NCBI RefSeq assembly: GCF_016680995.1
Contig: NZ_JAEQMG010000149.1
Span: 1-58,168 of the forward strand
Reading direction: 5' to 3'
DNA length: 58,168 nt
DNA from: Ruminococcus difficilis
GTDB lineage: Bacteria; Bacillota_A; Clostridia; Oscillospirales; Acutalibacteraceae
The position numbers and the translations under genes were made by a program. Under the pieces are notes generated by a model that saw nothing but the letters and a program-made list of their open reading frames with translations, ran no database searches and was not told where the DNA came from. This document shows positions 2,863 through 19,443 of the stretch, piece after piece. Within the stretch, counting starts at the first letter, position 1. Every line of letters starts with the position of its first letter.

Positions 2863-3774
2863 TTAAAGTGATAAGCCGTATATTTTTTTGACATTCTCGC
2901 TGAGGATCAGCTTCATCTCGTCGTCGGTAAGTCCGAGGTTAAAGAACATCTCCAGCTCGTCCTTGGGATGCCACATCGGGTAATCCGTACCGAACAGCAC
3001 CCTGTCCGCGCCGTAACGACGAATGATCTCAGCGGTTTTGTCGAGCGGTACCCATGACATCGTAGAGGAACAGTCGACATAGAGATTCGGGGTGCCCGCC
3101 AGCTGTAAGCTCGCCTCTTCCCAAAGCGACCAGCCGCCCATGTGCGCACCGATGATGGTCAGGTTGGTATAGGTCTCCAAAATCGGGATCAGGCGATTGG
3201 TGTTGGAAAAATCATAGCGTTTATCGCCCGTGTGCATCAGGATCGGCAAGCCATATTCCTCGCACAGCTCATAGATCTTCAAACAGCGATAGTCGTCGAT
3301 CTTGAATTGCTGGATATCGGGATGGAGCTTGACGCCCTTCAAGCCTAAATCTACAAGGTGCCGAACATCCGCGCGCTGATCCTCGCTGTCGGGATGGAGC
3401 GTACCTAAACCGGTGAGCTTGCCGTTTGAGCCGGCAACAGTCTCGGCGATGAAATGATTGATCGACTGCACCTGCTTGGGCGTGGTCGCGACAGACTGCA
3501 CCAGAGAATGGTCGATGCCGACTTCCTCGTTAATCTTCAGCAGGCTGCCGGCAGTACCGTCACACTTGGCGACGGTGTCATAAAAGGTATCGGTACCCGC
3601 GACCGCCTTGGCGGCGATCTTCTCGGGATAGATATGACAGTGGGAGTCAATAATCTGAAATCTTTCGGCTCCCTTTGGGAAAGGGAGCTGTCGACCGACA
3701 CACGTGTCGAGCGACTGAGGAATTGTATCGATGTTTGAGCGTGACGAATCACGCGAGTGACCTTTTTCCATCAT
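2863..3774 (-). CDS. Amidohydrolase-family (TIM-barrel) protein with a repeat-derived N-terminus
   Basis: A 303-residue metal-dependent hydrolase of the amidohydrolase-2 type. It has the HxH metal pair in DSHCHIYP (45-47), an LMHTGD His, GAHMGGW near 210 and the late FGTDYP Asp near 263. Related enzymes hydrolyse or decarboxylate small carboxylates; the substrate here is unknown. The first ~40 residues do not look like the family, which usually begins just before the IIDSHCH strand. They are encoded by a copy of a dispersed intergenic repeat that stays in frame. The only in-frame starts (3774, 3771) overlap the stop of the upstream ligase gene as ATGA, so translation is probably coupled. It lies last in the Leu T-box operon. 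Confidence 0.8.
   Translation of the reverse strand: MMEKGHSRDSSRSNIDTIPQSLDTCVGRQLPFPKGAERFQIIDSHCHIYPEKIAAKAVAGTDTFYDTVAKCDGTAGSLLKINEEVGIDHSLVQSVATTPKQVQSINHFIAETVAGSNGKLTGLGTLHPDSEDQRADVRHLVDLGLKGVKLHPDIQQFKIDDYRCLKIYELCEEYGLPILMHTGDKRYDFSNTNRLIPILETYTNLTIIGAHMGGWSLWEEASLQLAGTPNLYVDCSSTMSWVPLDKTAEIIRRYGADRVLFGTDYPMWHPKDELEMFFNLGLTDDEMKLILSENVKKIYGLSL
3667..3765. repeat. Dispersed repeat, family A, inside coding sequence
   Basis: This carries the GGCTCCCTTTGGGAAAGGGAGC end motif followed by a block that closely matches the copy near 24560-24605 (the GATACAATTCCTCAGTCGCT block on the opposite strand). It encodes roughly residues 4-37 of the amidohydrolase. Confidence 0.75.
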
Positions 3775-6296
3775 GCCGTCACCACGCTGTTCGCTTTTTG
3801 CAGACCGAGCTTTTCGACCGCGTCCTCACGCATTTTATACTTGAGGATCTTGCCGGCGGCGTTCATCGGGAAGCTGTCGACGAAGTCGATATAACGCGGC
3901 ACCTTATGACGAGCCATGCTCGCGGCGATAAAGTCCTTCATCTCCTGCTCGGTCATAGTCTCACCCTCCTTGAGGATGACGCACGCCATGATCTCTTCGC
4001 CGTAGTTTTCATCGGGAACGCCGATGACCTGTACGTCGGAGACCTTGGGATTGGTGTAGATGAACTCTTCGATCTCCTTGGGATAGATATTCTCACCGCC
4101 GCGGATGATCATGTCCTTCAAGCGACCGGTGATCTTATAATAACCGTCCTCGGTCTTGCAGGCGAGGTCGCCGGTATGGAGCCAGCCGTCCTTGTCGATG
4201 GCTTCGGCAGTCTCCTTGGGCATTTTGTAATAGCCCTTCATGATATTATAACCGCGCGCGAGGAATTCGCCGTTGACGTTCGGAGGACATTCCTCACCCG
4301 TCTCGGGATCGACGATCTTACACTCGATCTCGGGCAGTTCCTTGCCGACGGTGTTGACGCGGACTTCGATACTGTCCTCGGTCGAGCTCATGGTACAGCC
4401 GGGAGACGCCTCGGTCTGTCCGTAGACGATGGTGATCTCAGTCATGTGCATCTTATCGACGACCTCACGCATTTTGTCGATCGGACAGGGTGATCCCGCC
4501 ATGATACCGGTGCGCATATAGGAGAAGTCGGTGTTCGGGAAATCGGGATGCTCCAAAAGAGAGATAAACATCGTGGGAACGCCGTGGAAAGCGGTGATAT
4601 GCTCATTGTTGATGCACGCAAGCGCGGGCTTGGGGCTGAAATACGGCAGGGGCAGGACGGTAGCGCCGTGGGTCATGGAGGCGGTCATCGCCAAAACCAT
4701 GCCGAAGCAATGGAACATGGGCACCTGGATCATCATGCGGTCGGCAGTGGACAGATCCATGCGGTCGCCGATATTCTTGCCGTTGTTGACGATATTATAA
4801 TGGGTCAGCATGACGCCCTTGGGGAAGCCGGTGGTACCCGAGGTGTACTGCATATTGCACACATCGTCCTTATCCACCTGCGCCGCCATGCGGTAGACCT
4901 CGCTCTTGGGTGTTTTGGTAGCGTATTCCATCGCCTTTTCCCATGACAGGCAGCCCTTCTGCTCAAAGCCGACGGTGATGACGTTTCTGAGGAACGGCAG
5001 ACGCTTTGCGTGGAGCTGTTCACCCTCCTTGACGTTCTCAAGCTCGGGACACAGACGCGCTACGATCTCGCCGTAGCTGGTATCCTTGGCGCCCTCGGTG
5101 ATGATCAGGGTATGGGTATCGCTCTGCTTCAAAAGGTACTCCGCCTCGTGGATCTTATAGGCGGTGTTGACGGTGACCAGTACCGCGCCGAGCTTGACGG
5201 TCGCCCAGAAAGCGATGTACCACTGCGGCACGTTGGAAGCCCATACCGCGACATGGGAGCCCGCCTTGACGCCCAGAGAAATCAGCACGCGGGCGAATTC
5301 ATCGACGTCGTCACGGAACTCGGTATAGGTGCGGGTATAGTCCAGCGAGGTGTATTTGAACGCGAGCTGATCGGGGAACTCCTCTACCATGCGGTCAAGC
5401 ACATCGGAGAAGGTCGCGTCGATCAGCGTCTCCTTCTTCCACACGAACTTACCGGTATGACGGTTATTCCAGTACAGCGCGCTTTCGTTCTTGGAGGTAT
5501 CGGCGAACTGCTTCATATAGCTGATAAACTGGGCGAAGATGATATCCATATCGTCCAGATCGGGCTCCCAAGTGGGATCCCATACCAGTGAGATAAAGCC
5601 GTCGTAGTTGACGGAGCGCAGTGCCTTCATGGTCTCGGTAATGGGCAGATCGCCCTCGCCGACCAGACGGTATTCGATGCCGTCAGCGGTCTTGACGCCG
5701 TCATTGAGGTGGACATGACGGACGTAAGCGCCGAGGTTGGAGATGATCTTGGCAGGGCTCTCCCCTACGGTGAAGTAGGCGGCGGACATATTCCACAGCG
5801 CCGCGACATAATCGGACGCGAAATATTCGAGCGTATCGCGCAGCAGCGCGGTATCCGCGTACAGTCCGCGGGTCTCGATCAAAAGCGAGATCTTATCCTT
5901 CTCCGCGTCGGGGAGGATGGTCTCGATCAGATGCTTTGAATTCTTGACCGCCTTTTCCACATCCTCGTGCGATTCCGCACGCAGGCGGATGTTCGGGATG
6001 CGCAGATTGGCGGCGATCCTCATACAGCGCTCGATCTCGGCGATCGCGGAATCGAACTGCTCTTCGTCCGCGATATCGTTGATCACGTCGATACACGGCA
6101 GGGTCAGGTTGCGGTCATAGAGCATGCGCATCGTCGCCGCAGAGGAATAATCCTGGAATACGCTGCTCTTCTCGGAGAACGCGGCGTTATTGATATTATG
6201 GGGCTCGATGCCCTCGAATTTGAAATATTCAGCGGCTGTACAAAATTCTTCAAAAGAAATATCATGCCAGCCCTTGGTGGAAAAGGAAAATTTCAT
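3771..6296 (-). CDS. Fusion: sugar isomerase-like TIM barrel + AMP-forming acyl-CoA synthetase
   Basis: An 841-residue two-part protein. Residues 1 to ~265 are a xylose-isomerase-like/AP-endonuclease-2-type TIM barrel with the expected acidic and His positions (LLIETRG ~150, HVHLNDG ~195). Residues ~285-841 are a complete AMP-forming ligase: YTSGTTGFPKG (~484), YGQTEASPG, HTGDLA, the hinge GRLKDMIIRGGENIYP (~725) and the catalytic-Lys motif AAGKILKYK (~812). The ligase half is closest in look to medium/short-chain fatty acyl-CoA synthetases. It lies downstream of the LeuA-like gene under the Leu T-box, separated only by a repeat. I infer that it activates isovalerate for leucine synthesis. 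What the barrel does is unknown; it could be a structural or regulatory module. The start has no strong AGGAGG. Confidence 0.85.
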   Translation of the reverse strand: MKFSFSTKGWHDISFEEFCTAAEYFKFEGIEPHNINNAAFSEKSSVFQDYSSAATMRMLYDRNLTLPCIDVINDIADEEQFDSAIAEIERCMRIAANLRIPNIRLRAESHEDVEKAVKNSKHLIETILPDAEKDKISLLIETRGLYADTALLRDTLEYFASDYVAALWNMSAAYFTVGESPAKIISNLGAYVRHVHLNDGVKTADGIEYRLVGEGDLPITETMKALRSVNYDGFISLVWDPTWEPDLDDMDIIFAQFISYMKQFADTSKNESALYWNNRHTGKFVWKKETLIDATFSDVLDRMVEEFPDQLAFKYTSLDYTRTYTEFRDDVDEFARVLISLGVKAGSHVAVWASNVPQWYIAFWATVKLGAVLVTVNTAYKIHEAEYLLKQSDTHTLIITEGAKDTSYGEIVARLCPELENVKEGEQLHAKRLPFLRNVITVGFEQKGCLSWEKAMEYATKTPKSEVYRMAAQVDKDDVCNMQYTSGTTGFPKGVMLTHYNIVNNGKNIGDRMDLSTADRMMIQVPMFHCFGMVLAMTASMTHGATVLPLPYFSPKPALACINNEHITAFHGVPTMFISLLEHPDFPNTDFSYMRTGIMAGSPCPIDKMREVVDKMHMTEITIVYGQTEASPGCTMSSTEDSIEVRVNTVGKELPEIECKIVDPETGEECPPNVNGEFLARGYNIMKGYYKMPKETAEAIDKDGWLHTGDLACKTEDGYYKITGRLKDMIIRGGENIYPKEIEEFIYTNPKVSDVQVIGVPDENYGEEIMACVILKEGETMTEQEMKDFIAASMARHKVPRYIDFVDSFPMNAAGKILKYKMREDAVEKLGLQKANSVVTA

Positions 6297-6324
6297 CGGT
6301 TTTCACATACCTTTCGTTATATTT

Positions 6325-6459
6325 AGCCTCCCTTTCCTAAGGGAGGTGGCACTTGGCACACATGCCAAGTGGCGGAGGGTTTTACAATATGAAATCATCT
6401 TTACACAGCGTATCAACCCTCAGTCGCTATGCGACAGCTCCCTTAGAAAAGGGAGCCTA
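6325..6459. repeat. Dispersed repeat, family A, full-length copy
   Basis: About 135 bp bounded by near-inverted ends (AGCCTCCCTTTCCTAAGGGAGG at the left, CTCCCTTAGAAAAGGGAGCC at the right, each itself a hairpin). The interior contains CGGAGGGTT and CAACCCTCAGTCGC blocks. It sits between the LeuA-like gene and the fusion ligase. It has no coding capacity, so it resembles a MITE or REP-type element. Confidence 0.8.
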
Positions 6460-6465
6460 TATGCC

Positions 6466-7836
6466 TTATTCCTCTTCGTAAACGATCTTGTTGACGGCGC
6501 TGATGTACGCGCGGATGGACGCGCCGATGATATCGGTGGAGAGCCCGGTACCGGAATAGATCCGTCCCGCGACACGCAGACGAACCAGCGCGTTACCCAT
6601 CGCTTCTTTCTCCTGCGTAACGGTCTGGATGGAGAAGTCATCCAGCTCAAAGCGTCTGCCGATGATCTGCTCGATCGCGTGGAACGCCGCGTCGATGGGA
6701 CCGTCGCCGATGGCGATGCCCTGTACCGTCCTGCCCTCGCGGTTCAGCGAGATCTGGGCGGAGGAGCTGATACGGTTGCCGCTGTTGATCACATAATTCT
6801 CGATGGTGTAGGTCTCGGGCACCTGCAAAGCGGAGGACGCGACGATCGCGTCGAGCTCCTTGATACCGACATTCTTCTTGCGGGCAATGCGGAGGAACTC
6901 CTCATAGACCTTTTGAATATCCTCGTCGGAGAGATCATAGCCGATCCTCTCAATGTTCTCACGAACGGTATCGACCGTGTCGTTGAGCGACAGACGCACG
7001 CCGTCATCGATGATCTCACGAGCTGTCACCGTATGCGCCTTACCGCTGATGATCCACTCGATCTGGTCGATGGTACGGAGCAGCTCGGTGGTGCGGATAT
7101 CGGAGGTGATGCCGTAGTTCTCACGGATATCCTTGATCAGCGAGCCGAACTCACGCAGCGGAGTCGCCTCGCCGCCGATAGAGGTCTTGACGCAGGCAGC
7201 GCCGTTCTTGACCGCTAAGATCGCCGCGGCAGTCGCCACGCCGTTTTTATTGTTGCATTTCACGCCGACAGGCACATCCACACCCTCGGTCACACGAACA
7301 ACGAATGACGCGAAGTCATCGGGCAGCAGGATCGCCGCGTCATCACACAGGGTAATCGCGGTCGCGCCGGCACCCACCGCCGCTCTGACGGCTTCTTTGA
7401 GGAACGCTTCTTCGGCGCGGGTCGCATCCACAGCGGTGAACTCAACGTCATCACAGACGGACTTCGCCTTCTCGACCAGCTTCGTTACATAAGCGCACAT
7501 CTTGGGCTGCTTGATGTGCAGAGAATATTCCATGATGGACGCGGTCATCGGCAGTTCCACACGGATACGCGGATGTGAAGCGGTAGACAAGGCGTCAGCC
7601 GCTCGGTCGATCGCGTCAACGGACGTCGTCGCCGCCACGGACAGGACGCTGCCCTTCACAAAGGACGCCGCCGTGCGCACCAAAAGGCTGTCGGCTTTTG
7701 AAATGCCGACCTCGGGCAGCTCTACGGCGTCCACGCCCAGCCGCTCTAATTTGCGCGCGATCTCAAGCTTCTGCTTGAAGGATAAAGTCGATTTTTCATC
7801 GGATAAGGTTGTTTCTGCAATCTTGATGTGATTCAT
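6466..7836 (-). CDS. Divergent 2-isopropylmalate synthase-like protein, catalytic residues lost
   Basis: A 456-residue protein with the LeuA layout: a DRE-TIM barrel (1 to ~300), a linker and a C-terminal LeuA dimer/leucine-binding domain (~320-455, including the IENYVINSG and ISLNREGRTVQGIAIGDGP strands). In active LeuA, Arg-Asp of LRDG, the HxH pair and an Asn of GERAGN bind metal and substrate. Here these read TLSDEKS (residues 10-16), VKCNNKNG (~194) and GGEATPLRE, so only the Asp remains. Claisen condensation is therefore unlikely. The regulatory domain is well kept. The start at 7836 follows a GGGGA site, and a Leu T-box lies directly upstream. A leucine-sensing or alternative barrel role is inferred. 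Confidence 0.8.
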   Translation of the reverse strand: MNHIKIAETTLSDEKSTLSFKQKLEIARKLERLGVDAVELPEVGISKADSLLVRTAASFVKGSVLSVAATTSVDAIDRAADALSTASHPRIRVELPMTASIMEYSLHIKQPKMCAYVTKLVEKAKSVCDDVEFTAVDATRAEEAFLKEAVRAAVGAGATAITLCDDAAILLPDDFASFVVRVTEGVDVPVGVKCNNKNGVATAAAILAVKNGAACVKTSIGGEATPLREFGSLIKDIRENYGITSDIRTTELLRTIDQIEWIISGKAHTVTAREIIDDGVRLSLNDTVDTVRENIERIGYDLSDEDIQKVYEEFLRIARKKNVGIKELDAIVASSALQVPETYTIENYVINSGNRISSSAQISLNREGRTVQGIAIGDGPIDAAFHAIEQIIGRRFELDDFSIQTVTQEKEAMGNALVRLRVAGRIYSGTGLSTDIIGASIRAYISAVNKIVYEEE

Positions 7837-7907
7837 AACAATTCCCCGTTTCTGAATAATGAACGTGAAAGATGAACTCAATAGGAATCGGGTGCGGGCA
7901 GCGCCCG

Positions 7908-7943
7908 CCATTCACCGTTCACCATTCCCCGTTCACCATTCAC
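7908..7943. repeat. Short repeat, family C (GGTGAACGG type)
   Basis: Four tandem variants of CCGTTCACCATT lie between the Leu T-box terminator and the start of the LeuA-like gene. Longer copies of the same family occupy the equivalent place downstream of the other two T-boxes. Confidence 0.6.
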
Positions 7944-7950
7944 CAAATAT

Positions 7951-8272
7951 AAAAATCCCCGAGGTCATTGACCTCAGGGACGAAGTTACTTCGCGGTACC
8001 ACCCTGCTTACCGTATAACTACGGTCACTCTAAGGCTCTGACAAGCCCTCTGCCATGATAACGGGACACTCCGTAGCCGGTTACTATTACTATCAATCGT
8101 CATTGCGAAGCCCTTTAGGGCTGTGGCAATCTCCACCGACAGCAGTTCACCGACTCTGCTCCGAAATGAGACTCGCTTCTGCTGCCCTGTTATCTCGCAC
8201 CGACCGATAACTCTCTGAAAAGACGTTTGTAAAAGCGATAATTTCATCTGCGCATTTATGTGGTTATTCAGC
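7951..8272 (-). ncRNA. T-box leader, leucine specifier (CTC)
   Basis: On the minus strand this has the T-box Stem I start (CAGAGAGTTATCGGTCGGTG), a specifier region reading CTC-ATTTCGGAG (CTC = 8168-8170), and the antiterminator core GGTGGTACCGCG (7992-8003). A terminator stem (7956-7980) with T5 (7951-7955) follows. T-boxes read the uncharged state of a tRNA and allow transcription when the amino acid is scarce. The Leu assignment is by alignment with the other two leaders in this window, where the codon immediately precedes an RCTTCTGAG-like block. A dispersed hairpin repeat is inserted between Stem I and the antiterminator. Confidence 0.9.
8092..8137. repeat. Dispersed hairpin repeat, family B, inside the Leu T-box
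   Basis: On the minus strand: GGTGGAGATTGCCACAGCCC, a short loop, GGGCTTCGCAATGACGATTG. The same GAGATTGCC...GCAATGAC palindrome recurs at many intergenic sites in the window. Confidence 0.8.
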
Positions 8273-8279
8273 TTTTAGT

Positions 8280-8308
8280 AATATAGCATAATGTCAAAGA
8301 ATTGTCAA
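8280..8308 (-). promoter_or_regulatory. Promoter of the Leu T-box operon
   Basis: On the minus strand: TTGACA (8303-8308), a 17-bp spacer, TATATT (8280-8285), about 8 bp before the T-box start. Confidence 0.85.
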
Positions 8309-8640: not shown

Positions 8641-8646
8641 CATATC

Positions 8647-8676: not shown

Positions 8677-8720
8677 GATCAATGATGATTTGATTGAGAT
8701 TGGACGCGTGCGTCGTTTTA

Positions 8721-8772: not shown

Positions 8773-9837
8773 TCAAACCTCAACAATCCAGCCGAACTTA
8801 TCCTCAACCTCACCCCACTGGATGCCGGTGATGGAATCGTAGAGGTGCTGAGAGAGTTCGCCGATCTCGTTGTTGTTGATGATGTACTTGTGATCCTTAT
8901 AGCAAAGCTCGCCGATCGGAGAGATAACAGCTGCGGTGCCGCAGCCCCATGCCTCTTCCAGCGTGCCGTCGGTCATCGCCTGAGCGAGTTCTTCAACGGA
9001 GAGCAGACGCTCGGAAACCTCGATACCCTCGCTCTTCAAGAACTCAATGCAGCTCTTGCGGGTGATACCGGGCAGGATGGAACCGGTCAGCTTGGGCGTG
9101 ACGATCTCGCCGTTGATCTTGAACATGACGTTCATCGCGCCGACTTCCTCGATATACTTGCGCTCTACGCCGTCGAGCCACAGCACCTGAGAATAGCCCT
9201 GCTGCTCGGCGCGCTCGCCTGCACGGTTGGAAGCCGCGTAGTTACCGCCGCACTTCGCGTAGCCTGTACCGCCGCGTACCGCGCGGACGTCCTGATCCTC
9301 GATCATGATCTTGACGGGGTTCAGACCCTCCTTGTAGTAGGAGCCTACGGGAGATGCGATGATGATGAACTCCGCGTTGTGGACAGCATGAACGCCGAGG
9401 CTCTCGTCATTACCGAACATGAACGGACGCAAATACAGAGAAGTACCCTTATCGGAAGGCGTCCAATCCTGCTCTAAGCGGACGAATTCGACCAGCGCCT
9501 GCATCAGATCCTCTTCGGGCATCTGGGGCAGACAGAGACGCTCGGCACTGTTATTCATACGGCGGATGTTCTCGATCGGACGGAACATCTGCACCTTACC
9601 GTCGGCACGGCGATATGCCTTCAAGCCCTCAAAAATCTCGGAGCCGTAGTGCAGAACGGTAGAAGCCGGATGGATGGAAAGGTTCTCAAAGGGCACGATG
9701 CGCGGATTGTGCCAGCCCTCTTCGCTGTTCCATGTCCAGCGGAACATGTGATCGGTAAAGATCTGACCGAAACCGAGCGCGGAAGTATCGGTAGGCTTCG
9801 CCTTCGGATTCGGGTTTAATGTAACTTTGATATCCAT
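8773..9837 (-). CDS. ilvE: Branched-chain amino acid aminotransferase
   Basis: A 354-residue fold-type IV PLP enzyme of the long (eukaryote-like) BCAT type. It transfers an amino group from glutamate to the 2-oxo acids of Leu, Val and Ile in the cytosol. Visible motifs are LHYGSEIFEGLKAYR, YLRPFMFGND, the PLP-Lys region GYAKCGGNYAAS (Lys ~194), EEVGAMNVMF and the TGSILPGITRKS phosphate-binding region. The start at 9837 has AGGAGG 9 nt upstream; in-frame sequence further upstream is repeat-derived and was excluded. It is the last gene of the P-loop/vor run and is followed by a strong terminator. This places it as the final step of reductive amino acid synthesis from acyl-CoA. Confidence 0.97.
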   Translation of the reverse strand: MDIKVTLNPNPKAKPTDTSALGFGQIFTDHMFRWTWNSEEGWHNPRIVPFENLSIHPASTVLHYGSEIFEGLKAYRRADGKVQMFRPIENIRRMNNSAERLCLPQMPEEDLMQALVEFVRLEQDWTPSDKGTSLYLRPFMFGNDESLGVHAVHNAEFIIIASPVGSYYKEGLNPVKIMIEDQDVRAVRGGTGYAKCGGNYAASNRAGERAEQQGYSQVLWLDGVERKYIEEVGAMNVMFKINGEIVTPKLTGSILPGITRKSCIEFLKSEGIEVSERLLSVEELAQAMTDGTLEEAWGCGTAAVISPIGELCYKDHKYIINNNEIGELSQHLYDSITGIQWGEVEDKFGWIVEV

Positions 9838-9867
9838 GATGATTCCTCCTATACAATCTTCAATTAT

Positions 9868-10049
9868 CTTCAGGCCCCCTTTCCTAAGGTGCCCCCGTTG
9901 GGGGAATGTCCGAAGGACAAGGGGGGAGCCGTTTCCGGCGAGGAAGCTGTCTGCGTATGCAGACTGGGGGTTGCTCATTCAAACAAATGTAATATCGTGT
10001 TTACGACAACCCTCCGCCCTATCGGGCACCTCCCTTAGGAAAGGGAGGC
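9868..10049. repeat. Dispersed repeat, family A, long composite copy
   Basis: About 180 bp between ilvE and the VOR gamma gene. The left end is GGCCCCCTTTCCTAAGG with an inner GGGGGAATGTCCGAAGGACA block, and the right end is ACAACCCTCCGCCC...CACCTCCCTTAGGAAAGG. The same inner block recurs near 24640. Confidence 0.75.
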
Positions 10050-10051: not shown

Positions 10052-10587
10052 TTACTCAAACTCAGCGCCCATTTGGATCGCCTTGAAGTTGACGTCCTTC
10101 ATGTTGGCGCGCTTCGCGGAGATGACCTTGTCCAGAGCGGCACGGATGCCCTCCTCGGTATAGTCGCCGGTCTCCTTGAGGAGCTTGCCGACGATGATCA
10201 TGTTCGCGAGGTTGCCGAGCTTCTCATCGGAAGCCATGCGGGTCGCGGGGATGTAGAACACCTTGACGTCGTCACGCTCGACCTTGCGCTCGATCAGCGT
10301 AGAATCCGCGAAGATCATGCCGCCGGGCTTGACCTTGCTCTCGAATCTGTCCAGAGAGGGCAGGTTCATCGCGACGAGGATGTCGGGATTGCTGACGATC
10401 GGAGAGCCGACGGGCGTATCGGAAACGATGACGGAGCAGGACGCTGTACCGCCGCGCATCTCGGGACCGTAGGACGGCAGCCATGAAACTTGCTTGTCCT
10501 CGATCAGGCCCTTGTAGGCAATGAATTTGCCGGCGAAAAGGATACCCTGACCGCCGAAGCCGGAGAATAACATATTTTTAGCACTCA

Positions 10588-10588
<1 letters not shown>
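10052..10588 (-). CDS. 2-oxoacid:ferredoxin oxidoreductase (VOR type), gamma subunit
   Basis: 178 residues, the usual size of a free gamma subunit. The N-terminal GFGGQGILFAGK loop, WLPSYGPEMRGGTA and the later NMIIVGKLL segment are typical of the pyruvate/ketoacid ferredoxin oxidoreductase gamma domain. It works in a complex with the ferredoxin, alpha and beta subunits encoded just upstream. Its ATG touches the stop of the beta gene (1-nt overlap), so translation is coupled. The branched-chain assignment rests on context, since 2-oxoglutarate enzymes (KOR) share this gene order. Confidence 0.92.
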
Positions 10589-11345
<757 letters not shown>

Positions 11346-11346
<1 letters not shown>

Positions 11347-12410
11347 TACTTGATACCTCCGTTTACTTCTTTGATCGCGTTCAGCACCTGCTCGGGATCG
11401 GGGATCATACCGCCCGCGCGGTTGCACAGGGTCACGGGGCACTTACTCTCGGTGGCGAGCTGTACGTCCTCGATCATCTGACCCATGTTCAGCTCGACCG
11501 AGATGAACGCCTTCGCGTGCTCGGCAGCCTTCTTGAAGGGCGCCTTCGGGAACGGCCACAGAGTGATCGGACGGATCAGACCGACCTTGATGCCCTGCTT
11601 TCTGGCTTCATCGACCGCGTTCTTCGATACGCGCGCCGCGATACCGAACGCCGCGATCACGATGTCGGCGTCATCGACCTTGTATTCCTCATACATGGTC
11701 TCGTTCTCTTCGATGACCTTATAGCGGTCATAGCGCTTGAAATTGAGCTCCTCGAGTTCCTCGGGAACCAGAGAGAGGGAGTTGACGATATTGTGCTCAC
11801 GCTCCATCTTGGTGCCGGTGGTCGCCCACGGCTTTTCGGGAGCGGGCTTGACCTCGAGATCTTCGATGGAAACAGGCTCCATCATCTGACCCATGGTACC
11901 GTCGGCGAGGATCATGGCGGTCATGCGGTAGGTATCCGCCAGCTCAAAGCCCTTGACGGTCAGCTCCGCCATCTCCTGGACGGACGCGGGAGCGAGAACG
12001 ATCATGTGATAATCGCCGTGACCGCCGCCGCGGGTGGACTGGAAGTAGTCGGACTGGGAGGGCTGGATGCCGCCGAGTCCGGGACCGCCGCGCTGTACGT
12101 TGACGATCAGGGAGGGCAGGTCGGAGCCCGCTAAGTAGGATAAACCTTCACCCTTCAGCGATACGCCGGGAGAGGAAGAAGAAGTCATGACGCGTTTGCC
12201 CGCGGACGCCACGCCGTATACCATGTTGATCGCGGCGATCTCGGACTCAGCCTGCAGGAAGGTACCGCCGACCTTGGGCATGACCTTCGCCATGTAGGCA
12301 GCTATCTCGGTCTGAGGGGTGATCGGATAACCGAAGTAATGCATACAACCCGCCTTGATAGCGGCAGCAGCGATTGCTTCGTTACCTTTCATCAAAATCT
12401 TATCTGCCAT
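11346..12410 (-). CDS. vorB: 2-oxoacid:ferredoxin oxidoreductase (VOR type), alpha subunit
   Basis: 354 residues with the pyrimidine-binding-side features of the POR family: KGNEAIAAAAIKAG, the YPITPQTEI motif, AESEIAAINMVYGVASAG and TSSSSPGVSLKGEGLSYLAG. Length and motifs fit the proteins annotated as 3-methyl-2-oxobutanoate dehydrogenase subunit VorB. Substrates would be 2-oxoisovalerate, 2-oxoisocaproate and 3-methyl-2-oxovalerate. It sits between the ferredoxin and beta genes in the ferredoxin-alpha-beta-gamma order. KOR remains an alternative by homology alone, but ilvE downstream and the three branched-chain T-boxes nearby favour VOR. Confidence 0.9.
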
Positions 12411-12419: not shown

Positions 12420-12626
12420 TCACCTTTCTACCTTGATAATACAATCGGGGCACATCATGTAGCAGGACGCGCAGCCGATACAGGCGTCCATATCGGTGCA
12501 CTCTGCGGGATGATGACCCTTCTTGTTGATTTTGTCTGTGGCGATCTGCAGGATCCCTTTGGGACAAGCGTCGACGCACAGTCCGCAACCCTTACAGTTG
12601 TCGGTCTTGAATGTTAGCTTTGCCAT
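12420..12626 (-). CDS. Ferredoxin-type delta subunit of the oxidoreductase (2x[4Fe-4S])
   Basis: 68 residues with two cluster motifs, CKGCGLCVDACP and CIGCASCYMMCP. It carries electrons between external ferredoxin and the TPP subunit. AAGGG lies 9 nt before the ATG at 12626; an ATG two codons earlier is too close to it. The gene is 9 bp from the alpha gene. The 5' side is a long dispersed repeat, so it may be transcribed from upstream or from its own promoter in the AT-rich 12640-12685 stretch. Confidence 0.93.
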   Translation of the reverse strand: MAKLTFKTDNCKGCGLCVDACPKGILQIATDKINKKGHHPAECTDMDACIGCASCYMMCPDCIIKVER

Positions 12627-12689
12627 ATACATTTTCCCTTCTTTATAATACTTTTATATAAATAATTAGATTATAGTGGGCAGATTATC

Positions 12690-12878
12690 AAGCCTCCCTT
12701 TGGTAAAGGGAGGTGGGGTTGTCGCAAGACAACCTCGGAGGGATTGTATCAATCGCCAATTATAATGGCAACCTTATAAAAATGGTTTCTCCCGCGACAC
12801 AGGTGTCTCGGTCGAACATTTATGCAATCCCTCACCCGCTGAACGCGGGAGCTCCCTTTCCCAAAGGGAGCCTATACC
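12690..12878. repeat. Dispersed repeat, family A, long copy with inverted ends
   Basis: About 190 bp. The left end AAGCCTCCCTTTGGTAAAGG and the right end GCTCCCTTTCCCAAAGGGAG are inverted relative to each other; internal blocks include CGGAGGGATTGTATCAATCG and GCAATCCCTCACCC. It forms the junction between the P-loop gene, whose stop codon lies in its edge, and the ferredoxin gene. Confidence 0.8.
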
Positions 12879-13534
12879 GGCTTCTTTTGCAGCTTCAAGC
12901 GGAATAATGGGCTGATTTTATCCTTGAGGTCATCATAAAGACGTTCCTCAACGGTGGTAAGCACCAGCGGCAGGCTTGTGAGCCTCGACAATTCCTCGGC
13001 GTACTTCACAGAGGAAAGAATATCATCCGCGGAGGTCTCGGTTGCTAAGTTGGAATTGTTGATGATGCCCGTGAACGGGATACCGCACGCCGCTTCGATC
13101 TCGCGCATGACCTCGATGGTGGACTCTGCGTCGGGCGTCAGGGGGCGGTATTTGTTGACGACCATCAGCATCTCATAGTCGTTTTCCGCTATGATCGCGT
13201 CACGCAGTCTGCCGAGCGCGTAGGCTCCCCTATCGTCGCCGCCGATATCCATGATCACGCTCAGGCTTTTGTCATCGGTGATCGAATACAGGTCGGCGGG
13301 CATGGAGGGCAGATCCACGTTGGAGGACGCGAAATCGGAGCAGATCAGGCGGATGCCCTTCTCTTTGAATTCATCCTCACTGTCCTTACTGCGGAAATAG
13401 GGATTGACGATATCAAGGTCGGCGATCGCGACATTGTCCCGCTTTTCGGCGAGGTCGAGCGCCATATTGACGGCGATATTGGTCTTTCCCGAACCGTAGT
13501 GACCGCATAATATAGTCAAACGTTTGTAGGTCAT
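12872..13534 (-). CDS. P-loop ATPase (MinD/ParA/CobB-like) associated with the VOR genes
   Basis: A 220-residue SIMIBI-class nucleotide-binding protein. It has a Walker A motif CGHYGSGKTN (10-19), a DLDIVNPYFRS segment, a DIGGDDRG Walker-B-like region and VVNKYRPLTPD. Similar proteins are found beside ferredoxin oxidoreductase genes in Clostridia, and a cofactor-loading or maturation role is a reasonable inference. The start at 13534 has GGAG 6 nt upstream and is preferred to an ATG four codons earlier. The last codons and the TAG stop lie at the edge of a dispersed repeat, so the C-terminus may have been trimmed or replaced. Confidence 0.85.
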   Translation of the reverse strand: MTYKRLTILCGHYGSGKTNIAVNMALDLAEKRDNVAIADLDIVNPYFRSKDSEDEFKEKGIRLICSDFASSNVDLPSMPADLYSITDDKSLSVIMDIGGDDRGAYALGRLRDAIIAENDYEMLMVVNKYRPLTPDAESTIEVMREIEAACGIPFTGIINNSNLATETSADDILSSVKYAEELSRLTSLPLVLTTVEERLYDDLKDKISPLFRLKLQKKPV

Positions 13535-13552
13535 TTTTATCTCCATTATGAT

Positions 13553-13694: not shown

Positions 13695-13718
13695 ACGAAT
13701 ATACAATTATTTACCGAA

Positions 13719-16007
13719 TCACAGTAAATTTCGTTGAATCTTACCGCTGGTCGTCTTGGGCAGGCTGTCCTTGAAGACGACGATACGCGGATATTTATAC
13801 GGAGCGGTATGGGTCTTGACGTAGTCCTGGATCTCCTTCTTCAGCTCCTCGGTGCCCTCGGTACCCTTGACCAGCACGATAGAAGCCTTGACGACCTGTC
13901 CGCGGACGGGATCGGGCGCGGGAGATACGCCGCACTCAAGCACATACGGCAGCTCCATGATGACCGATTCGATCTCGAACGGTCCGATACGGTAGCCGGA
14001 GGACTTGATGACGTCATCCGCTCTGCCGACATACCAGAAGAAGCCGTCCTCATCACGCCAAGCGAGGTCGCCGGTGTGATAGTAGCCGTTGCGCCAGTTC
14101 TTGCGGGTGGAGTCGACGTCGTTGTAGTAGTACATCGCCAGACCGCAGGGCATTTTGTCGGCGATATTGATGCAGATCTCGCCGGGCTCACCGTCGGGAA
14201 CATCGTTGCCGTCCTTGTCGATCAGGTGGATGTCATAGATCGGAGAGGGCTTGCCCATCGAGCCGATCTTATGCGGCGCGCCGATCATGTTGCAGATGAT
14301 AACGGCGGTCTCGGTCTGACCGAAGCCCTCCATGATCTGTAAACCTGTCAGCTTCTCGAACTGGTTGTATACCTCGGGGTTGAGCGCCTCGCCCGCAGTG
14401 GTCATGCGCTTGACGGAGGAGAAATCGTATTTGCTGATATCCTCCTTGATCATCATGCGCAGCATGGTAGGAGGCGCGCAGAAGGTGGTGATGTGGTATT
14501 TGGCGAACATCGGCAGGATATCGTCGGCATGGAAGCGGTCGAAGTCATAGACGAACATCGGCGCTTCACACAGCCACTGTCCGTAGAGCTTGCCCCACGC
14601 CGCCTTTGCCCAACCGGTGTCGGAGATGGTGAAGTGCAGACCGTCGGGGTCGACGTTGTGCCAGAAATGCGCGGTCATAAAGTGACCGAGCGCCAGCTTA
14701 TAGCTATGCGCGGCGATCTTCGGATAACCGGAGGTACCCGAGGTGAAGTACATCAGCATGATGTCGTCGCCGCAGGGAGTGCTCTCCTTACGCTCGAAGT
14801 GAGAGGAGAACAGCTTATATTCTTCATCGAAATTGCGCCAGCCCTCGCGCACACCGTTGACCATGATGCGCTTTAACTGCGGATAATTCTCCATCGCCTT
14901 CTCGACCTCAGCGGCGGAGTAGCCGTCGCCGGTGCAGACGATCGCGGAAACGCCCGCCGCCTTGAAGCGGTATTCAAGGTCGTGAGCCTGGAGCTGGTTG
15001 GTCGCGGGGATCGCGATCGCGCCGAGCTTATGCAGACCGATGATCGCGAACCAGAACTGGTAATGACGTTTTAAGATCAGCATAACGCGGTCGCCCTTGC
15101 GGATGCCGAGCGATTTGAAATAGTTCGCGCACTGGCATGACGCGTGACGGATATCGGTAAAGGTGAAGCGATGCTCCGTTTTATCATTGGCGACATGGAT
15201 CATCGCGAGCTTATCGGGATCCTTATAGGAAATGGCGTCGATGACGTCGAAGCCGAAGTTGAATTTGTCCTCATTCTTGAAGGTGACCTTGGTGGGCGTA
15301 CCGTTCTCGTTGACCTCATAGTCGACGAACTTCTTCCAGACACGTTCCTTGGTATCGACGTTCTCTACCTTCGCGGCGGCGATCGCCTTGGTGGTGGTCA
15401 GCTCGGGAATCGGCTCACCCTTCGGGTTGAGGACGATGGCGTAGAAGATACAATCCTGCTCGCCGACTGCCATTTCACCATGAGGGGTGTTGGAATCGAA
15501 GTAGATGGTATCACCGGGGCCGAGGATCTCCTTATGCTCGCCGACCTGTACCATCAGCTGTCCCTCGATGACGATGTCGATCTCCTGACCGTCGTGGGTG
15601 GTCAGCTCCATCGGCTTTGACTGCGCCTCGGGATTGTACTTACTCTTGACATACAAGGGCTCGGCGATACGGTTCTGGAACGCATAGGCGAGGTTATAAT
15701 AGGTCATGCCGTGCGCCTGAGATACCTTCTGTCCTTGTCCGCAACGCGTCACGGTATAGGATTTCAGGTTCGGGGAGATACCCTCGATGATCTCGGTGAC
15801 GTTGACGTTCAGCGCCTGAGAGACGCGGTAGATGAACGCGAAGTTCAGATCCTGCTCGCCTGACTCACACGCGATATATTCATCCTCGGTGACGTCGGCG
15901 AACGCCGCCATTTCGGCGATCGTCTTGCCCTCAAGTTCGCGCAGCTCGCGAATTCGGGTCGCCATTTCTTTGATTTTCGTGTCCAAAGCTGTCGTGTTAT
16001 AATCCAT
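13719..16007 (-). CDS. HTH-cupin-acyl-CoA synthetase fusion under a Val T-box
   Basis: 762 residues in three parts. There is an XRE-type helix-turn-helix (~15-70, IRELRELEGKTIAEMAAFA), a cupin domain (~105-185, GQLMVQVGEHKEILGPGDTI then TPHGEMAV), and an AMP-forming acyl-CoA synthetase (~225-762). The synthetase has FTSGTSGYPK (~423), HFTISDTGWAKAAWGK, GFGQTETAV, YHTGDLAWRDEDGFFWYVGR and the end motif SGKIQRNL. The ligase half resembles medium-chain and branched-chain acyl-CoA synthetases. The start at 16007 has GAGG 6 nt upstream. A T-box with Val specifier precedes it, so I infer activation of isobutyrate to isobutyryl-CoA for valine synthesis. P-loop, vor and ilvE genes follow in the same direction with no strong terminator, so the Val T-box may drive the whole set. 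Confidence 0.9.
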   Translation of the reverse strand: MDYNTTALDTKIKEMATRIRELRELEGKTIAEMAAFADVTEDEYIACESGEQDLNFAFIYRVSQALNVNVTEIIEGISPNLKSYTVTRCGQGQKVSQAHGMTYYNLAYAFQNRIAEPLYVKSKYNPEAQSKPMELTTHDGQEIDIVIEGQLMVQVGEHKEILGPGDTIYFDSNTPHGEMAVGEQDCIFYAIVLNPKGEPIPELTTTKAIAAAKVENVDTKERVWKKFVDYEVNENGTPTKVTFKNEDKFNFGFDVIDAISYKDPDKLAMIHVANDKTEHRFTFTDIRHASCQCANYFKSLGIRKGDRVMLILKRHYQFWFAIIGLHKLGAIAIPATNQLQAHDLEYRFKAAGVSAIVCTGDGYSAAEVEKAMENYPQLKRIMVNGVREGWRNFDEEYKLFSSHFERKESTPCGDDIMLMYFTSGTSGYPKIAAHSYKLALGHFMTAHFWHNVDPDGLHFTISDTGWAKAAWGKLYGQWLCEAPMFVYDFDRFHADDILPMFAKYHITTFCAPPTMLRMMIKEDISKYDFSSVKRMTTAGEALNPEVYNQFEKLTGLQIMEGFGQTETAVIICNMIGAPHKIGSMGKPSPIYDIHLIDKDGNDVPDGEPGEICINIADKMPCGLAMYYYNDVDSTRKNWRNGYYHTGDLAWRDEDGFFWYVGRADDVIKSSGYRIGPFEIESVIMELPYVLECGVSPAPDPVRGQVVKASIVLVKGTEGTEELKKEIQDYVKTHTAPYKYPRIVVFKDSLPKTTSGKIQRNLL

Positions 16008-16028
16008 AACGCACCTCATTCTTGAATT

Positions 16029-16170
16029 CGGGAACGGAGCGGATCGGAGAACGGTGAACGGAGAACGGTGAACGGTGAAGGTATCTCGCTTCGCTCAAAC
16101 AATTCTATTAGGAATCAAAAATGCGAAGCATTTCCCACAACCGTTAACCGTTAACCGATAACCGTTAACC
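16029..16170. repeat. Repeat, family C, between the Val T-box and its gene
   Basis: Same core and GGTGAACGG / CCGTTAACC arms as the copy at 13553. It lies in the transcript between the T-box terminator T-run and the ribosome site of the synthetase. Confidence 0.8.
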
Positions 16171-16504
16171 AAAAATAGCGCCCATCCCAAAGTAATCACT
16201 TTGAGACGAGCGCATAACACCCGCGGTACCACTCAAATTGCAGGCTGATATCTCAGCACTGCCACTCTCAGGGTCTATACATCGGTTGAGATCACCACGG
16301 CACGATGTGCCTCGTGATGACAATCATCTATTAACCCCTATGCATTTACGCAGCAATCACGGAGGAGGTCTAATCATATCACAGGATACTTTCTTCTCCC
16401 CGGCTCAGAAGCTACAAACACGGAATCCATCATGGGAGCTTGCACCAACCGCTCTTTCTCTGGATGATGAGAGAACCGCGCCCTCTTCGTCATAGCCTTT
16501 AGCT
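16171..16504 (-). ncRNA. T-box leader, valine specifier (GTA)
   Basis: On the minus strand: Stem I start CCAGAGAAAGAGCGGTTGGT, specifier region TTT-GTA-GCTTCTGAGCCGGG (GTA = 16413-16415), antiterminator core GAGTGGTACCGCGGGTG (16216-16232). A terminator stem (16176-16213) then leads into T5 (16171-16175). The block immediately after the specifier is identical in the Ile leader, which makes the codon reading fairly secure. A family-B hairpin lies between Stem I and the antiterminator. Confidence 0.92.
16283..16325. repeat. Dispersed hairpin repeat, family B, inside the Val T-box
   Basis: GGTTGAGATCACCACGGCAC, loop, GTGCCTCGTGATGACAATC. The same variant is found in the Ile leader, as expected if leader and gene were duplicated together. 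Confidence 0.8.
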
Positions 16505-16510
16505 CGTCTA

Positions 16511-16539
16511 ATAATATCACATGATTCAATCTTTGTCAA
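16511..16539 (-). promoter_or_regulatory. Promoter of the Val T-box operon
   Basis: On the minus strand: TTGACA (16534-16539), a 17-bp spacer, TATTAT (16511-16516). The stretch from 16540 to the stop of the next gene at 16663 holds only a short CGGTACG...CGTACC palindrome (about 16577-16606). Confidence 0.88.
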
Positions 16540-16662
16540 CAATTAAATTGTAAAACGACATTTGTCGGAAACCTCTCGGTACGCCGCAAGCGCCGTACCC
16601 TACAGAAAACGAATCATCTGCTTCGCAATGAGGTGTCGCTTTTATCCTTCATTCTTCACCAA

Positions 16663-18927
16663 TCAGAGCTTATTGCGCTGGATCTTGCCGCTGATCGTCT
16701 TGGGCAGGCTGTCCTTGAAAACAACGATACGCGGATATTTATACGGCGCGGTATGCTTCTTGACGTAATCCTGGATCTCCTTCTTCAACGCGTCCGTGCC
16801 CTCGGTACCCTTGACCAGCACGATGGACGCCTTGACGACCTGACCGCGCACCTCGTCGGGAGCAGCGGATACACCGCACTCGAGGACATAGGGCAGCTCC
16901 ATGATGACGGATTCGATCTCGAACGGTCCGATACGGTAGCCGGAGGACTTGATAACGTCGTCGGTTCTGCCGACATACCAGAAGTAGCCGTCCTCATCGC
17001 GCCACGCGGTATCACCGGTGTGATACATGCCGTCATGCCATGCCTCTTTGGTGGCTTCTTCATTATTATAATAGCCCTTGAACAATCCGCAGGGAACGCG
17101 CTTGTCGGTGCGGATGATGATCTCGCCGGGCTCACCGTCGGGAACGGGATTGCCGTCGGGATCAACGATATCGATATCATAGCCGGGGATGGGCTTGCCC
17201 ATCGAGCCGAGCTTGGGTGTTGTGCCGAAGAGGTTGCCGATGGTGAGGGTGGTCTCGGTCTGGCCGAAGCCCTCCATGATCCTCAATCCGGTCGCCTTGC
17301 GGAACTGACGCCACACCTCGGGATTGAGCGCCTCGCCCGCGGTGGTCATATGGGTGATACTGGACAGATCGTACTTGCTCAGATCCTCCTTGATCATCAT
17401 GCGCAGCATGGTAGGCGGCGCGCAGAAGGTGGTGATATTGTACTTCTTGAACATCGGCAGGATGTCATCCGCGTGGAAGCGGTCGAAGTCATAGGTGAAT
17501 ACCGCGCCCTCGGAAAGCCACTGACCGTAGAACTTACCCCACAGCGCCTTGCCCCAGCCGGTGTCGGAGATGGTGAAGTGCAGGCCGTCGGGATCGACGC
17601 CGTGCCAGTATTTGGCGGTGACATAGTGACCCAGCGCATACTTATAGCTGTGGTTGGCGATCTTCGGATAACCTGTCGTGCCCGAGGTAAAGAACATGAC
17701 CATCGTATCGTCGCCGCAGGGCGTTTCCGTCGTGCGGTAATAGTGGGTGGAGTACATCTCAAACTCCGCGTCAAAGTCATGCCAACCCTCTCTATTGCCG
17801 CCGACCATGATCTTGGTCTGCAGGGTCGGACAGGTCGTCTGCGCCTCATCGACGGAATCGGCGACCTGACCGTCGGCAGTCGCGACGATTGCGGAAACAC
17901 CTGCGCTCTGGAAGCGATACTCGAAATCGTGCGCAAGGAGCTGGTTGGTCGCGGGGATCGCGATCGCGCCCAGCTTATGCAGCGCGAGCATACTGAACCA
18001 GAACTGATAATGGCGTTTGAGGACGAGCATGACGCGGTCGCCCTTCTTGATGCCGAGGGACTTAAAATAGTTCGCCGCCTGATTGGAACGGCGCTTCATA
18101 TCGTTGAAGGTAAAACGGCGCTCGACCTTGTTCTTGTCGACATGGAGCATGGCGAGCTTATCGGGCGTATTGTTCGCGATCGCGTCAACGCAGTCAAACG
18201 CGAAGTTGAACTTATCCTCATTGCGGAAGCTGATCGCCTTGAGGCAGCCGTTCTCGTCCTCCAATGTGCGGACAAACTGACCGGTGATAGCGGATTTCTT
18301 CTTGACATGCGCCTTCATCACCTCGTCGTCGCGCTCTTCGGTCTCTTTCTCACCCGGCAGGATGATGGCGATGAACTTGACGTTCTCGCCGCCGATCGCG
18401 ATCATGCCGTGAGGCGTGGAGGAATTGTAGTAGATGCTGTCGCCCGCGGCGAGCTCCTCAAAGTTGTTGCCGATCTGGATCTTCATCTTGCCCGACAGGA
18501 CAAAGTCGAATTCCTGTCCCGCGTGCTTGGTCAGGTGGATCGGTTTATTCTGCAAGCTCTCGTTATAATCGTACTGGCAGAAATACGGCTCGGCGATCTT
18601 GTTCTTGAACATCGGCGCGACGTTGATGATGGAGATGCCCTCCTCCTCGGCAGTCTGTCTGCCGCCGCCGCGGCGGGTCACGGTGTAGCTCTTGAGCCTT
18701 GCGGACTCACCCTCGAGGATATCGGTGATGCCCAGTCCGAACGCCAAAGCGCACTTGTGGATGAAGGTGAAGGGAAAATCCTCGGTGCCGTTCTCATACG
18801 CCTTGTACTCAGATACGGACACCTCGGTTTTCTCCGCCATTTCTTCCACGGAAAAGCCGCTGATCTCGCGCATTTCACGGATACGCTTCGCGACCTCGAT
18901 GAGTTTTTCGTTATCAACTACTGACAT
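16663..18927 (-). CDS. HTH-cupin-acyl-CoA synthetase fusion under an Ile T-box
   Basis: A 754-residue paralogue of the adjacent Val-linked synthetase with the same order. It has an XRE-type HTH (~8-70, IREMREISGFSVEEMAEKTE), a cupin (~105-190, GKMKIQIGNNFEELAAGDSI, TPHGMIAIG) and an AMP-forming synthetase (~230-754; FTSGTTGYPK ~411, GFGQTETTL, YHTGDTAWRDEDGYFWYVGR, SGKIQRNKL). The last ~120 residues are nearly identical to the paralogue while the HTH and cupin parts have diverged strongly. GGGAGG lies 7 nt before the ATG. The Ile T-box upstream suggests 2-methylbutyrate as the substrate, feeding isoleucine synthesis through VOR and IlvE. Aromatic or medium-chain acids remain possible by homology alone. 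Confidence 0.9.
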   Translation of the reverse strand: MSVVDNEKLIEVAKRIREMREISGFSVEEMAEKTEVSVSEYKAYENGTEDFPFTFIHKCALAFGLGITDILEGESARLKSYTVTRRGGGRQTAEEEGISIINVAPMFKNKIAEPYFCQYDYNESLQNKPIHLTKHAGQEFDFVLSGKMKIQIGNNFEELAAGDSIYYNSSTPHGMIAIGGENVKFIAIILPGEKETEERDDEVMKAHVKKKSAITGQFVRTLEDENGCLKAISFRNEDKFNFAFDCVDAIANNTPDKLAMLHVDKNKVERRFTFNDMKRRSNQAANYFKSLGIKKGDRVMLVLKRHYQFWFSMLALHKLGAIAIPATNQLLAHDFEYRFQSAGVSAIVATADGQVADSVDEAQTTCPTLQTKIMVGGNREGWHDFDAEFEMYSTHYYRTTETPCGDDTMVMFFTSGTTGYPKIANHSYKYALGHYVTAKYWHGVDPDGLHFTISDTGWGKALWGKFYGQWLSEGAVFTYDFDRFHADDILPMFKKYNITTFCAPPTMLRMMIKEDLSKYDLSSITHMTTAGEALNPEVWRQFRKATGLRIMEGFGQTETTLTIGNLFGTTPKLGSMGKPIPGYDIDIVDPDGNPVPDGEPGEIIIRTDKRVPCGLFKGYYNNEEATKEAWHDGMYHTGDTAWRDEDGYFWYVGRTDDVIKSSGYRIGPFEIESVIMELPYVLECGVSAAPDEVRGQVVKASIVLVKGTEGTDALKKEIQDYVKKHTAPYKYPRIVVFKDSLPKTISGKIQRNKL

Positions 18928-18967
18928 AGGATGACCTCCCTATCAAACTTTATTATTCATCTTGTTT

Positions 18968-19072
18968 CGGTGAACGGTGAAGGTATCTCGCTTCGCTCAA
19001 TCAATTCTATTAGGAATCAAAAACGCGAAGCGTTTCCCACAACCGTTAACCGTTAACCATTAACCGTTAACC
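18968..19072. repeat. Repeat, family C, between the Ile T-box and its gene
   Basis: GGTGAACGGTGAAGG, the TATCTCGCTTCGCTCAATCA core, ACGCGAAGCGTTTCCCACAA, then CCGTTAACC arms. It is nearly identical in the core to the copy at 13553. Confidence 0.8.
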
Positions 19073-19408
19073 AAAAATAAAACGCCCGTCTCAACATTGA
19101 GACGAGCGTGAAAAATCACATCCGCGGTACCACTCAATTTGCAGTATTGCTACTGCCACTCTCAGGATCGATATATCATTGATATCACCACGGCACGATG
19201 TGCCTCGTGATGACAATCTATATGAATCCCTATGCCTTTACGCAGCAATCACGGGGAGTATCTACTCAGCATACAGATGTATGACTTTTCGGGCTCCCGG
19301 CTCAGAAGCGATGGGTACTCAGGCTCATTCTGTCGGCTCACACCAGCCGCCGACTCTCTGAAAAAACAATGCCTTGACCGTCTTCGTCACAGCCTTTATC
19401 AATTGTCT
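19073..19408 (-). ncRNA. T-box leader, isoleucine specifier (ATC)
   Basis: On the minus strand: Stem I start CAGAGAGTCGGCGGCTGGTG, specifier region CCC-ATC-GCTTCTGAGCCGGG (ATC = 19310-19312), antiterminator core GAGTGGTACCGCGGATG (19119-19135). A long terminator stem (19083-19108) is followed by a T-rich run (19073-19082). A family-B hairpin sits between Stem I and the antiterminator, as in the Val leader. Confidence 0.92.
19171..19216. repeat. Dispersed hairpin repeat, family B, inside the Ile T-box
   Basis: GATATCACCACGGCACGATG then TGCCTCGTGATGACAATC, the same variant as at 16283. Confidence 0.75.
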
Positions 19409-19414
19409 GTTAAA

Positions 19415-19443
19415 AATGTATCACAATTGTTCGGAAAAGTCAA
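19415..19443 (-). promoter_or_regulatory. Promoter of the Ile T-box gene
   Basis: On the minus strand: TTGACT (19438-19443), a 17-bp spacer, TACATT (19415-19420). Confidence 0.82.

Follow-up and report, generated by a model that had tools for sequence, protein, structure and literature searches.

Which genes allow rumen bacteria to build amino acids from branched short-chain acids, and how are the three acids told apart? The physiology is decades old, and neither the responsible genes nor this discrimination is set out in the open-access literature searched. The question is raised by a locus of Ruminococcus difficilis, located between about 19.4 and 2.9 kb of a stretch of 58,168 nucleotides (contig NZ_JAEQMG010000149.1 of assembly GCF_016680995.1; the whole stretch is called the window below). 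The conversions concerned, isovalerate to leucine (Leu), isobutyrate to valine (Val) and 2-methylbutyrate to isoleucine (Ile), are described for rumen bacteria in PMC7356843. It is very probable that the locus makes Ile, Val and Leu from 2-methylbutyrate, isobutyrate and isovalerate, through acyl-CoA synthetases, a VOR-type oxidoreductase (VOR) and the aminotransferase IlvE, under T-box leaders for Ile, Val and Leu. A preliminary description of the window had already proposed this pathway, and three lines of evidence now support it: the pairing of leader codon and synthetase is kept across genera and families, ilvC, ilvD and above-cut-off leuB and leuC are missing from the nine same-genus carriers tested, and two of the synthetases have a relative that prefers 2-methylbutyrate.

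The genes are all on the minus strand. Reading from about 19.4 down to 2.9 kb, an Ile T-box precedes ACS1; a Val T-box precedes ACS2 and the genes for a P-loop protein, ferredoxin, VOR alpha, beta and gamma, and ilvE; and a Leu T-box precedes a LeuA-like gene, ACS3 and an amidohydrolase gene:

19095..19399, minus strand: T-box leader with specifier AUC (Ile), heading ACS1 (Rfam RF00230, 78.5 bits, E 1e-15; terminator-like hairpin, conservation, covariation)
16663..18927, minus strand: ACS1, HTH(XRE)-cupin-AMP-forming acyl-CoA synthetase of 754 amino acids, predicted 2-methylbutyryl-CoA synthetase (Pfam/NCBIfam; PDB 3etc_A, 629 bits)
16199..16502, minus strand: T-box leader with specifier GUA (Val), heading ACS2-VOR-ilvE (RF00230, 66.8 bits, E 1e-12; terminator-like hairpin, conservation)
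13719..16019, minus strand: ACS2, HTH-cupin-acyl-CoA synthetase of 766 amino acids, predicted isobutyryl-CoA synthetase (Pfam/NCBIfam; PDB 3etc_A, 601 bits; clade; alanine (Ala) at the position of glycine 459 (Gly459) of ACS1)
12872..13546, minus strand: P-loop (CbiA/MinD-like) protein adjoining the VOR genes (Pfam; NCBIfam matches weak, far under the cut-off)
12420..12632, minus strand: 4Fe-4S ferredoxin-like VOR subunit (Pfam)
11346..12410, minus strand: VOR alpha subunit, VorB-type (NF005507, 549 bits, cut-off 399)
10588..11346, minus strand: VOR beta subunit, thiamine pyrophosphate (TPP) type (Pfam; under the NCBIfam cut-off)
10052..10588, minus strand: VOR gamma subunit (PF01558; under the NCBIfam cut-off)
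8773..9978, minus strand: ilvE, branched-chain aminotransferase (TIGR01123 and NF009897, above cut-off)
7973..8259, minus strand: T-box leader with specifier CUC (Leu), heading the LeuA-like gene and ACS3 (RF00230, 108.9 bits, E 1.5e-23; terminator-like hairpin, conservation, covariation)
6466..7836, minus strand: LeuA-like pseudo-2-isopropylmalate synthase of 456 amino acids (catalytic residues lost, LeuA_dimer kept; start set as in homologues)
3771..6296, minus strand: ACS3, xylose-isomerase-like TIM barrel and acyl-CoA synthetase, 841 amino acids, predicted isovaleryl-CoA synthetase (Pfam/NCBIfam; homologues)
2863..3774, minus strand: Amidohydro_2 protein, 3' of ACS3 (Pfam)

The four-subunit VOR gene set is complete, with the VorB-type alpha subunit identified by NF005507 and the ferredoxin, beta and gamma subunits by Pfam. 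The preliminary description had named three synthetases with Ile, Val and Leu T-boxes, together with one VOR (ferredoxin, alpha, beta, gamma), a P-loop protein and ilvE. These parts are borne out, the leaders by the specifiers AUC, GUA and CUC and the proteins by Pfam and NCBIfam; the LeuA-like gene, first behind the Leu T-box, and the N-terminal fusions of the synthetases had been overlooked.

Each of the three T-boxes is followed on its 3' side by a terminator-like hairpin and a T run, in segments with predicted energies of -21.5, -25.7 and -25.7 kcal/mol. Since Stem I of the three single window sequences folded no better than shuffled sequences (z 0.13, 0.93 and 0.29), the structural evidence for the leaders consists of the covariance model and covariation. 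The covariation sets covered the Ile and Leu leaders and were limited to those whose codon had beforehand been read as expected; 12 of 21 Stem I pairs covary in the Ile set (29 of the 77 listed leaders) and 15 of 17 in the Leu set (25 of the 29 listed). Short tandem repeats of the GGTTAAC / GGTGAAY type are found just 3' of all three hairpins, at about 19075-19035, 16170-16137 and 7945-7907.

Specifiers were read by a rule that places the codon one base 5' of the basal helix, and ambiguous rows were settled separately, some by eye. Two earlier readers, which failed or were too loose and left many codons unread or wrong, were discarded. Three near-complete relatives (G013, G017, G018) gave 26 T-boxes (E ≤ 0.001), nine inside the locus and 17 outside it, the latter serving as controls. 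With a slightly looser reader, 8 of the 17 outside leaders were read: six match the downstream gene (three cysteine, three phenylalanine; for the cysteine leader L207, cysS starts 679 bases downstream) and two were misread, L225 (thrS) and L231 (trpB-like), which by eye give ACC and UGG and fit the gene. Seven of the nine unread leaders also fit by eye, namely alanine GCU, GCC and GCU (L214-L216), tryptophan (L218, L221) and threonine (L227, L229), while L228 reads UGG by eye ahead of a gene without a family match. Ten of the 17 control genes were run against NCBIfam and nine were named; six of the other seven resemble those run in sequence. For an ACS1 leader (L219), the first candidate of the looser reader was wrong (AAU) and the second was AUC. 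Apart from L232, which is unread, the 26 matches include no Ile, Val or Leu T-box beyond those of the locus.

The codon pairing was followed in stretches from 27 of 39 related genomes and around the 80 top-ranking matches of a pattern search that gave at least 592 in GTDB genomes, with titles naming uncultured Ruminococcus, Oscillospiraceae and Clostridia and, in many cases, rumen, caecum, colon or rectum. Ahead of ACS1, 79 of 82 distinct leaders read AUC (78 by rule, L038 as second candidate); the exceptions are L092, which reads GUA and has its gene in the ACS2 slot, L044, unread by the script and AUC by eye, and L119, cut at a contig end. Ahead of ACS2, 47 of 49 read Val (43 GUA, 4 GUC), and the two that the script left unread are GUA and GUC by eye. 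All 30 leaders ahead of the LeuA-like gene read Leu (25 CUC, 5 CUG). The variants within each class are synonymous, differing in the third base. Nine of 13 class-level loci have readable leaders, with Leu in 9 of 9, Ile in 6 of 6 and Val in 1 of 1. In a FastTree phylogeny of 139 fusion synthetases (73 with Ile leaders, 41 with Val leaders, 25 with none or an unread one), a single codon change is needed.

Gene content recurs as well. All 80 GTDB loci contain ACS1, which was the query, and 53 contain ACS2, 59 vorA and 33 the LeuA-like gene; the 59 with vorA have the P-loop gene in 58 cases, ferredoxin in 59 and ilvE in 42. ACS3 lies directly 3' of the LeuA-like gene in 32 of 33 loci, the 33rd ending at that point. 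The complete set of ACS1, ACS2, ACS3, vorA and LeuA-like gene is present in 25 of the 80, many loci being cut by contig ends. The Amidohydro_2 gene occurs in 15 of 34 ACS3-bearing GTDB loci, with variable adjacency to ACS3, and plays no part in the proposed pathway. In G015 (L041:1224-3496), the ACS2 gene is split across two frames behind an intact Val T-box. In the class-level locus L199, T-box groups of the Val, Leu and Ile types follow one another, with no VOR within the 15.5 kb fetched. L206 (G137), retrieved along with the 13 class-level loci of the LeuA-like gene, carries VOR genes and lacks the LeuA-like gene.

Loss of the classical pathway accompanies the locus. None of nine same-genus carriers (G001, G005, G012, G013, G015, G017, G018, G024 and G021, the last with a rearranged locus form; three genomes are 99-100% complete) has ilvC, ilvD or an above-cut-off leuB or leuC. 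In the same genus, all four genes are present in G002, G003, G008 and G016, where the search yielded no fusion synthetase, and G010 has three, ilvD being missing. G038 carries the Ile and Leu branches and no ACS2; it keeps ilvC and ilvD, with leuB and leuC not above the cut-off, as the model predicts. All four genes are kept in G011, where only ACS1 was found of the three synthetases. Over 120 same-genus genomes, with ACS2 orthologues called at an identity of at least 65%, ilvD occurs in 3 of the 33 that carry ACS2 against 73 of the 87 that do not (Fisher p 2e-14, kinship ignored). Among 79 class-level genomes, at least 14 carry LeuA-like/ACS3, taken from among the matches listed; leuB above the cut-off is found in 3 of 14 carriers against 44 of 65 others (p 0.002) and ilvC in 3 of 14 against 40 of 65 (p 0.008), again ignoring kinship. 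The preliminary description had suggested searching related genomes for the T-box/synthetase pairing and for missing ilvCD; the pairing recurs in relatives, and the nine same-genus carriers tested have neither ilvC nor ilvD.

T-boxes turn up expression when the cognate amino acid is scarce, in response to uncharged tRNA. If Leu, Val or Ile ran short, its uncharged tRNA would prevent termination in the corresponding leader, and the level of the corresponding acyl-CoA synthetase would rise. Each branched acid would be activated to the acyl-CoA by its own synthetase. VOR, drawing on reduced ferredoxin, would carboxylate the acyl-CoA to the 2-oxo acid, which IlvE would transaminate to Leu, Val or Ile. 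VOR and IlvE, behind the Val leader, would serve all three acids. We infer that the genes behind each leader are co-transcribed. The branched short-chain acids likely come from neighbouring microbes.

The LeuA-like gene (7836-6466) is the first behind the Leu T-box and lies ahead of ACS3. Its homologues were collected as 45 frames, of which 40 were analysed after removal of three repeats and two truncated ones. The catalytic Arg, Asp and HxH of LeuA are kept by 12%, 0%, 0% and 3% of the 40, and none is kept in the window protein. The LeuA_dimer domain is retained (PF08502, 104 bits in the window protein), and of its 10 columns that are invariant in canonical proteins, 7 are conserved in at least 90% of the homologues. 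As read from this alignment, constraint is shifted from the catalytic to the regulatory domain. The protein was considered as a working synthase of the leucine pathway and rejected, its catalytic residues being gone and leuB and leuC not being above the cut-off in carriers. It could also be a true enzyme with an altered active site, catalyzing a new condensation, lyase or isomerase step on the Leu route; this is doubtful, since the catalytic columns are variable among the 40 homologues and not merely changed, the GERAGN and GIHQHG loops are deleted, and it is now the regulatory domain that is constrained. Because the catalytic residues are lost, the leucine-binding domain is kept and the carrier genomes tested lack above-cut-off leuB and leuC, the LeuA-like protein is probably a leucine sensor.

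ACS1 and ACS2 are fusions of HTH, cupin and AMP-forming synthetase domains. A hint of the origin of the fusion comes from the relatives L067, L068 and L069, where the HTH-cupin part and the synthetase are encoded by two adjacent genes. In the PDB, ACS1 and ACS2 both match 3etc best (629 and 601 bits); this is MacsMa of Methanosarcina acetivorans, an enzyme that prefers 2-methylbutyrate (PMC10455477). The best NCBIfam match is the MbcS model NF047394, at 449 and 422 bits against a cut-off of 850, so that ACS1 and ACS2 are kin of MbcS and are not called orthologues. Six residues that we take to form the acyl pocket of MacsMa, with numbering matched by spacing in the ACS1-3etc alignment, are invariant in the Ile-type and Val-type clades. 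Between two of them, ACS1 position 459 is Gly in 73 of 73 Ile-type and Ala in 41 of 41 Val-type sequences, and Gly in MacsMa; it is the sole site of the synthetase domain with one fixed residue per clade. The Ala may narrow the pocket to suit isobutyrate, the smaller acid. The synthetase part of ACS3 belongs to a different subfamily (best NCBIfam match PRK12583, under the cut-off) and is fused to a xylose-isomerase-like TIM barrel. Of 46 ACS3-like frames, the 36 above 700 bits were used; among these, five barrel positions that we take to be candidate metal positions are conserved in 17 to 29 homologues, and the window protein keeps two of the five. ACS1, ACS2 and ACS3 are predicted to be 2-methylbutyryl-CoA, isobutyryl-CoA and isovaleryl-CoA synthetases, respectively.

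MbcS of Listeria, a methylbutyrate synthetase, provides primers for membrane lipids. The match of ACS1 and ACS2 to this model would fit synthetases that supply iso and anteiso primers for branched-chain lipids, with amino-acid synthesis secondary. Such a role is improbable, as it leaves the matching leader codons, the presence of VOR and ilvE in the same group and the ilv/leu loss without a function. A degradative locus, in which VOR oxidises branched 2-oxo acids and the synthetases run in reverse or recycle the acids, would agree with the reversibility of IlvE and of VOR enzymes, which are best known as oxidative. We consider degradation of Leu, Ile and Val very unlikely, since T-boxes would raise its expression under amino-acid scarcity, the nine same-genus carriers would be left with no known route to the three amino acids, and AMP-forming synthetases use ATP for acyl-CoA formation. 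That the codons are fortuitous and the T-boxes were recruited without specificity deserves almost no credence: two window T-boxes do fall under the Rfam gathering score, but codon class tracks protein clade with one change among 114 read rows, and the third-base changes are synonymous.

Several observations weigh against synthesis of Ile, Val and Leu from the branched acids. The gathering score of RF00230 is 93, and only the Leu leader of the window exceeds it, the Ile and Val T-boxes remaining below. The 80 GTDB loci were selected by similarity to ACS1 and ACS2, and partial loci are common among them (VOR in 59, ACS2 in 53, LeuA-like gene in 33), some being cut by contig ends. Relatives are non-independent and many assemblies incomplete; the tree rows are related too, and an Ile, Val or Leu candidate was preferred where a leader gave several. 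No T-box core was found upstream of 22 of the 139 fusion synthetases, and three have an unread core. Since G057, G128 and G131 hold both ACS2 and ilvD, the locus is not always a substitute for de novo synthesis; 14 of the 87 same-genus genomes without ACS2 likewise lack ilvD, and 3 of the 14 class-level carriers retain ilvC and leuB. The ACS3 matches include no characterised close relative, so the assignment of isovalerate rests on the Leu leader, the partner gene and exclusion.

Within the amino-acid synthesis model, our opinion is evenly balanced on a more detailed proposal, in which each branch is doubly controlled, at the RNA level by a codon-specific T-box and at the protein level by a sensor on or beside the synthetase. 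As this second layer, the dead LeuA-like protein would sense leucine for ACS3 as a regulatory subunit of the isovaleryl-CoA synthetase, ACS1 and ACS2, with their own HTH-cupin domains, would themselves be regulators, and the single Gly or Ala of the pocket would set 2-methylbutyrate against isobutyrate.

The locus offers a gene-level, testable answer to the opening question, with one codon-matched synthetase per acid and a one-residue hypothesis (Gly/Ala) for substrate choice. Loss of ilv/leu together with the locus would mark a genome as dependent on branched acids, and the LeuA-like protein looks like a biosynthetic enzyme that lost its activity and was retained as a sensor. These points are relevant to microbial cross-feeding and to isoacid feeding of livestock. 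Elsewhere in the window, a S-adenosylmethionine (SAM) riboswitch at 24138-24044 lies ahead of an S-adenosylmethionine synthetase gene (23946-22756), and 44526-55258 holds a small group resembling non-ribosomal peptide synthetase genes; it has several genes of the adenylation type, of which one includes a carrier domain and one a condensation domain.

No such locus was found in the open-access literature searched, subscription papers lying outside its coverage, and the view of the preliminary description that it is undescribed holds for that literature. Carboxylation of branched-chain volatile fatty acids in rumen bacteria was reportedly described by Allison and co-workers in 1966 and 1971 (cited in PMC7356843). 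The three conversions of acid to amino acid are the same here; that work concerns a physiological pathway, the present locus a gene cluster in which each acid has its own predicted synthetase, the leaders match by codon and ilv/leu loss is linked. With T-box biosynthesis operons (RF00230), the locus shares Stem I and specifier, T-box core, terminator-like hairpin and biosynthetic genes downstream; it differs in that acid activation and VOR would be controlled instead of ilv/leu, and in having three cognate leaders per cluster. ACS1 and ACS2 resemble MacsMa and Listeria MbcS in synthetase family and pocket residues, and differ by the N-terminal HTH-cupin fusion, the sub-cut-off MbcS score and a Val-type clade with Ala.

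The LeuA-like protein resembles 2-isopropylmalate synthase LeuA in fold, LeuA_dimer domain and leucine leader, and differs from it in lacking the catalytic Arg/Asp/HxH and both loops, and in the company of genomes where leuB and leuC do not exceed the cut-off (the nine same-genus carriers). HisZ, a catalytically dead paralogue of HisRS, regulates HisG. If the sensor reading is right, the LeuA-like protein would be, by analogy, another dead metabolic enzyme retained beside its target as an amino-acid sensor; whereas HisZ regulates HisG, leucine binding and interaction with ACS3 are proposed here from sequence. The parts of the locus are of known kinds; as variants of these, the way they are combined, the synthetase fusions and the apparent sensor derived from a dead LeuA are new within the open-access literature searched.

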